This document shows positions 13,525 to 14,684 of a DNA stretch of 38,071 nt, piece after piece. The notes beneath the pieces were generated by a model, which saw only the letters and a program-made list of their open reading frames with translations, was not told where the DNA came from and ran no database searches. Each line of letters begins with the position of its first letter. Positions within the stretch are counted from its first letter, which is position 1. This DNA comes from Phycisphaerales bacterium (GTDB lineage Bacteria > Bacteroidota > Bacteroidia > Chitinophagales > Chitinophagaceae), in NCBI GenBank assembly GCA_030053995.1, contig JASGCP010000006.1:1-38071 (forward strand), written 5' to 3'. The translations under genes and the position numbers were made by a program.

Positions 13525-13679
13525 GCAGATTTTATGGATTAGTAAGTTTGAAAAATTGATTTAGCCCAAAACCAAAATAGGAAATTTATAGGGCATAAAG
13601 ACGGTAAATTCATACCTTGATACAAGGATGAGTTTTTTTAAGACATAAAAATATCCAGTATAGCTAATTAAATAAAAAA

Positions 13680-13699
13680 GGCAACTTATACAAGTTGCC
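13680..13699 (-). terminator. Intrinsic terminator downstream of the RiPP-like gene
   Basis: GGCAACTT (13680-13687) and AAGTTGCC (13692-13699) form a perfect 8-bp stem with loop ATAC. On the minus strand the hairpin is followed by TTTTTTATT, a good U-tract. It lies about 200 nt beyond the stop of the peptide gene at 13897 and upstream of mrp. Apart from this hairpin and the mrp promoter, the 396 nt gap 13501-13896 shows no gene. Confidence 0.7.
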
Positions 13700-13896
13700 T
13701 TTAGAATTAGCTGATACTATCCATTATCATATATTATCCCTAATAGGTTACTATCCAACGGATACTATGTCCGTTTATATGATTGACGAGTGTATGAATA
13801 AAAACAAGAAAATATAATTTTTGAAAAATAAAAACCATTCTTTTTGTCCATTACGCCACAATTTTCGGTAGCTAACTTATTTAGGATAATGGATGA

Positions 13897-14184
13897 CTAA
13901 TTATCTTGTACCCAAGTTAAACCTCTCATGTGCATGCATGGTGACGTTGGGCACGGATCCTGATCATTATTCGAACATGAACAGGTACCCCCACTAACCA
14001 TAGTGTGCCATAATATCCATGAAGCAAAAAAATTACCACCTGACTTTGTTCTACATGAGGATTGATTTGGTGTTTTGGAGCAAGAGTTGCCATCCTTACC
14101 ACTACCTACAAGATATCTCATTTCGGTTTTTTTTAGGCTAATCCTTAATAATGTAATACCTAAATTTGCTAATTGCTTTGTCAT
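13897..14184 (-). CDS. Putative RiPP (natural product) precursor peptide
   Basis: A 95-residue peptide starting at the ATG at 14184; an in-frame GTG at 14211 would add nine residues. The N-terminal 29 residues look like a Bacteroidota natural-product leader: a short helix (KQLANLGITLLRISLKKTEM) followed by RYLVGSG, where VGSG stands where such leaders usually have a double-glycine. The rest is rich in Cys, Ser, Thr and Gly, with six Cys at 35, 44, 68, 70, 78 and 83, including TCSC and the tail DPCPTSPC. No modification enzyme, peptidase-transporter or immunity gene is adjacent. The class is unknown; it could also be a small secreted Cys-rich protein. No homolog is recalled with certainty. Confidence 0.55.
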   Translation of the reverse strand: MTKQLANLGITLLRISLKKTEMRYLVGSGKDGNSCSKTPNQSSCRTKSGGNFFASWILWHTMVSGGTCSCSNNDQDPCPTSPCMHMRGLTWVQDN

Positions 14185-14324
14185 AAAAAAATTTAATTTA
14201 TTAATAACCACGATAAAATCATATTCCTACTATCCATAAGTTAGACATCATAGACGGCATAAAGTTAAAATAATGTTAAAATGTATTTATGTTTTCTCAA
14301 ATCAACAGTACATGGAATCTTGGG

Positions 14325-14530: not shown

Positions 14531-14598
14531 GCCACAACTAATTAATCATTAAACATTGATAATTAAGCATTAGTCCCGCAGGCTTGATTTTTTCTTTA

Positions 14599-14632
14599 TT
14601 TCTTTCTTTTGTATCAAGACAAAAGAAAGAAA
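14599..14632. repeat. Perfect 14-bp palindromic hairpin
   Basis: TTTCTTTCTTTTGT (14599-14612) and ACAAAAGAAAGAAA (14619-14632) are perfect inverted repeats around the loop ATCAAG. From memory, very similar TTTGTATCAAGACAAA hairpins, often preceded by a GC-containing stretch like the CCGCAGGCTTGA here, are dispersed in intergenic regions of many Bacteroidota. It may also serve as a terminator, since the arms are T- and A-rich. Confidence 0.7.
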
Positions 14633-14684
14633 AATAAGTTTAGAAAACTGAAATACCATTTTTAAGAGGCAATTCGTTAACCAT

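Follow-up and report, generated by a model that had tools for sequence, protein, structure and literature searches.

A short cysteine-rich peptide encoded in the 38,071-nucleotide window that we analyzed is, by sequence comparison, one of more than 100 paralogues in its own genome. We propose, with a probability of about 0.8, that these paralogues constitute a genome-wide library of disulfide-bonded miniproteins, which would share a conserved leader, be exported by a PCAT and be oxidized by a VKOR-containing protein. The genome is a MAG of 2.28 Mb (203 contigs; completeness about 90%, contamination 0.65%), and the window is its contig C146.

A double-glycine-type precursor among housekeeping genes

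The precursor gene, recognized by homology to its paralogues, lies on the minus strand at 13897-14184, where an ORF with an ATG start encodes 95 residues (reading MTKQLANLGITLLRISLKKTEMRYLVGSGKDG...); the plus strand of the same interval contains stops throughout. The initial annotation had described a 95-residue peptide with Cys at 35, 44, 68, 70, 78 and 83 and an intrinsic terminator downstream. Translation of the minus strand gives the same peptide with the same six Cys, and a hairpin resembling an intrinsic terminator (11-pair stem, 4-nt loop and T tail) lies about 200 bases downstream of the ORF on the same strand, at 13677-13702. Because G27-S28, a degenerate double-glycine site, aligns with the GG of the family, we assign residues 1-28 to the leader (14101-14184, minus strand). 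From alignment and core comparison, residues 29-95 form the core (13900-14100, minus strand), with its even number of Cys. The earlier reading of the gene as a precursor with a GG-type leader and a Cys-rich core is thus borne out by the paralogue alignment. An ECF-sigma-like promoter element, TTTAACTTT-N12-ATGTCTAA, is located at 14241-14269 on the minus strand (motif score 20.8). Between the peptide gene and dapF there is also an AT-rich inverted repeat (14589-14634), which is tied to neither.

Neighboring genes in the window are of housekeeping type and encode a Mrp/NUBPL-type ATPase, dapF, an aminotransferase class IV protein and secDF; no modifying enzyme or exporter was present among the ten window proteins scanned. 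Pfam and NCBIfam gave no match to the window peptide even at E 10, a solved-structure search returned nothing meaningful, and phage and plasmid searches gave no match. An AlphaFold model of the peptide alone was uninformative (pLDDT 42).

One leader shared by more than a hundred scattered genes

When the window peptide alone was used as query against its own genome, seven other places were recovered (E 1.5e-4 to 0.009), each of them a short ORF whose N-terminus is of the same type and whose remainder is rich in Cys. Alignment of these eight sequences revealed a leader conserved at M1, G9, R14 and G27, and cores with little in common beyond some Cys. With a profile of the eight members, 85 genomic sites scored at E<=10, and an iterated HMM search gave 107 ORFs at E<=0.001 (across 61 own-genome stretches, about 754 kb). 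A leader model of 52 members matched 139 places at E<=1, of which 116 reached E<=0.001; nearly all are open frames and a few hold internal stops. We estimate the total at about 110-130 scattered genes with this type of leader and with unrelated cores rich in Cys. The search for paralogous leaders with variable Cys-rich cores that the initial annotation had proposed was therefore positive within this genome, and its description of the gene as an isolated orphan does not survive: the paralogues are accompanied by one apparent export and oxidation operon.

Because the leader model was trained on members from the same genome, its E-values are not independent, and related genomes provide the control. 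Across 60 relatives of the same family or order, the same model found four matches in total, in two genomes (0-3 each), both of which also have the C39-VKOR fusion described below. Among other Bacteroidota, 15 of 394 genomes had matches, numbering one to eight among the best 19 candidates per genome; full scoring at E<=0.1 gave 23 and 14 in two genomes of another genus in the same class versus 134 in the own genome. In these two genomes (G473 and G256) the copies have a similar leader and Cys-rich cores, a smaller expansion. With the window peptide left out of the leader model, it still scored best (E 0.0055) of the 1044 window ORFs and reversed decoys; next came a decoy (E 0.6).

The family leader follows the type L-G-x2-L-x-R-x-E-x-K ... 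GG/GA/GS and is predominantly 23 or 28 residues long, the window peptide being of the 28-residue type with GS. In 99 members the site is GG in 62, GA in 19 and GS in 8, and the family has the conserved N-terminal leader ending in GG, GA or GS that is expected of PCAT-exported double-glycine peptides. Leader and core differ sharply in the iterated-HMM set, with Cys making up 0.1% of leaders versus 14% of cores. The cores are highly diverse: 99 of them have 92 distinct Cys spacings, clustering at E<=0.001 yields 70 core groups, and the window core has no sequence similarity to any other core of the family set. In close paralogue pairs pN/pS was 0.43 for leaders and 0.74 for cores, and core pN exceeded pS in some of these pairs.

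Some precursors occur as tandem copies that are identical or nearly so, in places beside broken ones (L039 on C12, 347-1556; L040 on C112, 2205-3281), which suggests birth and death through local duplication. Similar precursor pairs with similar upstream DNA and diverged cores were also seen near the ends of contigs C144 (L045) and C120 (L046), and between C143 (L044) and C131 (L083); they reflect either recent duplication or strain variation within the assembly.

An ECF-sigma-like promoter in many members

Words over-represented upstream of family members resolve into a motif, TTTAACyTT-N12-TTGTCTAA, found mostly 20-60 bases before the start and with a strong preference for the spacing of 12. 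An AAC and a GTC about 17 bases apart are typical of ECF-sigma promoters. At a score of 11 the motif was present in 41% of members versus about 1% of random genome windows; in a held-out test, a motif model trained on half of the members recovered 39% of the other half versus 1.2% of random genome windows. The site of the window gene, 56 bp upstream, is among the better ones, and about 60% of members have no clear motif. Given this shared ECF-sigma-like promoter, many of the scattered precursor genes probably form one regulon. The maturation operon described below has only a weak match to the motif, so the machinery may be regulated separately.

The motif also precedes several lipoproteins, two of them resembling YCF48/BNR-type repeats, and a possible SusD-like ORF, all from ORFs read by eye (L092:4379-4407, L098:4204-4232, L073:73-101, L041:18159-18187). 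For this reason the regulon may extend beyond the peptides.

A candidate export and oxidation operon

Only two C39 matches were found in the genome, and both lie in one operon on contig C113. This operon encodes, in order, a 553-residue fusion of C39-like, VKOR and thioredoxin domains, a 741-residue C39-ABC exporter that aligns with PCAT1 from end to end, a 456-residue HlyD-type protein, an 82-residue family member and a 667-residue DsbD-like protein. The genome thus contains a C39-ABC transporter that is unlinked to the window gene and linked to another member of the family, in keeping with the initial annotation's placement of the machinery elsewhere in the genome. Because the MAG is fragmented and about 90% complete, it may lack additional exporters or modifying enzymes.

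In an alignment of 22 fusion sequences, the four VKOR Cys and the thioredoxin CxxC are invariant; the C39-like domain lacks the catalytic Cys, His and Asp and keeps an HPDYPSLLS motif. We modelled the homologue from Mucilaginibacter segetis, for which confidence was confined to the two soluble domains and the membrane part was poor (mean pLDDT 59). At its N-terminus the model matches LahT, a double-glycine protease whose solved structure includes its leader (6mpz), and at its C-terminus it matches DsbA-like proteins of the BdbD/ScsC kind. From this predicted fold, together with the lost catalysis, we read the first domain as a likely leader-binding or docking domain. A literature search on C39-VKOR fusions, with most subscription journals outside its reach, found nothing.

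Relatives of the fusion occur in 27 of 149 genomes of the family, this one included. In most relatives examined, a GG-leader Cys-rich ORF lies near the fusion gene, typically directly after it, and such adjacency extends over many genera, Mucilaginibacter included; a few neighborhoods (for example L108, L109, L113 and L115) lack such an ORF by the pattern used. Six named records combine the fusion with a nearby PCAT homologue of roughly 51-66% identity, mostly with HlyD: a Chitinophagaceae MAG, two Bacteroidetes MAGs, Mucilaginibacter segetis, M. phyllosphaerae and M. limnophilus. The Chitinophagaceae MAG contains the closest named relative of our fusion, and on this basis we call the genome Chitinophagaceae-like. 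A Prevotella locus (L137) considered as a further fusion was rejected as an ordinary active PCAT. In some relatives (L132:8998-11166; L131:500-2109; L104 in G101) a frameshift or stop interrupts the gene for the exporter or the fusion, reflecting either sequencing error or decay.

Taken together, we suggest the following route. The leader would be recognized by the C39 peptidase domain of the one PCAT exporter on C113, which would cut after GG, GA or GS and export the core with the HlyD adaptor. The fusion, comprising an inactive C39-like domain, a quinone-linked VKOR oxidase and a DsbA-like thioredoxin, would bind or follow the same leaders and oxidize the exported cores until every Cys is in a disulfide. 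The leader family, the even Cys counts, the operon with its conservation, the domain composition and the promoter motif are read directly from sequence; within this route we infer the leader binding by the inactive C39 domain, the order of oxidation and export, and the use of one exporter by all members.

Even cysteine counts favor disulfides

Of 99 members, 91 have an even number of core Cys; among all counts, six Cys occur in 18, seven in 3, eight in 35, nine in 3 and ten in 25. Evenness persists with one representative per core cluster (64 of 70, p about 1e-13). The same held in 50 of 51 peptides of a relatives' set, drawn from C39-VKOR neighborhoods and other leader-model matches, and in 14 of 15 peptides from other genera. 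Unrelated small ORFs gave 19 even and 8 odd, a control sample too small to use that itself leaned even; more weight rests on the fact that counts of 7, 9 and 11 hardly occur between the peaks at 6, 8 and 10. As lanthionine chemistry does not require evenness, the even counts point to disulfides rather than lanthionines, and together with the VKOR-DsbA fusion they argue against Ser/Thr-Cys thioethers. An even core Cys count and a thiol oxidase fusion beside the peptides in most relatives examined are both what would be expected of disulfide peptides.

The initial annotation had called the leader RiPP-like and had proposed a genome search for lanthipeptide or radical-SAM enzymes. We found no LanC domain in this genome, about 90% complete as assembled, and on this negative search the lanthipeptide class was rejected. 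A single SPASM radical-SAM protein was detected (L220 on contig C126, 416-1636, minus strand). It is a distant rSAM_ACGX match, no precursors were detected on its contig, and a radical-SAM RiPP was rejected because this sole SPASM protein is unlinked to any precursor. The leader and core layout of a RiPP stands; thioether chemistry is not supported, given the even counts, the fusion and the negative LanC search. An orphan RiPP precursor of lanthipeptide, radical-SAM or other cross-linked class, with its maturation enzyme elsewhere in the genome, could draw on the resemblance of the leader to Bacteroidota RiPP leaders (a weak TIGR04149 match in one paralogue) and on the SPASM protein itself, but the points just given weigh against it and we regard it as improbable. 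Still more remote, to the point of being negligible, is the notion of chance ORFs or decaying repeats with spurious leaders. The few copies with internal stops would fit it; nearly all other frames are open, however, and follow the even-Cys rule behind a shared promoter, and the family is nearly absent from 60 related genomes.

Possible targets of the peptides

Disulfide-bonded, exported miniproteins of this kind would most likely serve antagonism, against other bacteria or against eukaryotic microbes, and either target is compatible with the maturation route proposed above. They may be narrow antibacterial toxins like the bacteroidetocins, made by a PCAT and thiol-oxidase route, a tentative view to which we lend somewhat less than even credence. 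The similar locus layout (PMC6671954) and the NCBIfam label 'bacteriocin-like' for a related Chryseobacterium leader family speak for such a role, whereas the leader lengths (mostly 23 or 28 versus 15-16 residues), the longer cores with usually 6-10 Cys and the presence of more than 100 different cores in one genome, unlike any bacteroidetocin locus, speak against it. Doubtful, yet worth considering, is a conotoxin- or defensin-like arsenal that a bacterium living with a host or by predation would direct against eukaryotic microbes or hosts. A conserved leader with hypervariable Cys-framework cores (the 92 spacings in 99) and the pN/pS of 0.74 for cores versus 0.43 for leaders would suit this idea, as would a genome smaller than those of most family members; but small size in an incomplete MAG is a weak hint, and some low-copy relatives are ordinary cultured Mucilaginibacter.

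Independently of target, the odds seem to us about even that the system is a conotoxin-like library in the full sense: more than 100 hypervariable disulfide miniproteins built on one leader template, largely under one ECF sigma factor, and exported and folded by oxidation through one leader-guided module, whose inactive protease domain would bring a VKOR-DsbA oxidase to the exporter.

If the disulfide-library reading is right, this would be among the largest one-leader precursor families in a bacterial genome, exceeding the 79 substrates of SyncM, and would have been made with the simplest chemistry, disulfides. Nature would then provide, in genetically encoded form, a library of folded scaffolds rich in Cys, and with it a dedicated leader-linked export system that forms disulfides and could serve to make such peptides. 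The combination of GG leader, even Cys and C39-VKOR-Trx fusion also offers a sequence rule for finding many more peptides of this kind, which current family models would miss, since Pfam and NCBIfam give the window gene no match.

Comparison with known systems

By analogy of locus and peptide, the nearest characterized case is the bacteroidetocins, proposed class IIf bacteriocins of Bacteroidetes with a GG leader of 15-16 residues and a core of about 42-48 residues that has four similarly placed Cys, probably disulfide-bonded (PMC6671954). A region of four genes, for peptide, thiol oxidoreductase, five-TM protein and PCAT, is enough to give activity in E. coli (PMC6671954), and the peptides act on BamA (PMC8546649). 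Both systems would combine a GG leader, a PCAT, a core with paired Cys and a locus that includes a dedicated thiol oxidoreductase as well as a membrane protein, in a Bacteroidota host; a PCAT and an oxidase/TM fusion are present in our genome. Unlike in bacteroidetocins, leaders here are mostly 23 or 28 residues and cores are longer with usually 6-10 Cys, the window peptide (leader of 28 residues, core of 67, six Cys) lying outside the class IIf dimensions. The oxidase is also fused to VKOR and an inactive C39 domain, and more than 100 genes are scattered over the genome.

Among leader families, NCBIfam NF047798 (leader_Chryseo, 'bacteriocin-like protein') likewise has a short N-terminal leader ending in GG, several scattered copies per genome and Cys-rich cores. 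The best match in our genome, however, reached 18.0 bits (E 0.016), below the curated cut-off of 23.5 bits, and the copy number here is several times higher. TIGR04149, the leader family of GG-Bacteroidales rSAM-modified RiPPs, is also a Bacteroidota GG leader; it matches one paralogue, weakly and below threshold, and no linked radical-SAM enzyme was found.

The predicted fold of the N-terminal domain of the fusion matches the LahT/PCAT C39 peptidases (PDB 6mpz; PMC6363468) and the C39-like domain 3zua, from which the domain differs in having no catalytic Cys, His or Asp and in being joined to VKOR and a DsbA-like domain. In its logic, one promiscuous machinery acting on many precursors with a conserved leader and a variable core, the system recalls the prochlorosins and SyncA peptides with ProcM and SyncM, the latter a lanthionine-forming enzyme for which as many as 79 substrates are reported from a single strain (PMC9872173). 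ProcM and SyncM, however, are cyanobacterial class II synthetases that form lanthionines, whereas here the sequences read as disulfide peptides and LanC was not found. Many peptides on one template is also the plan of the cone snail toxins.
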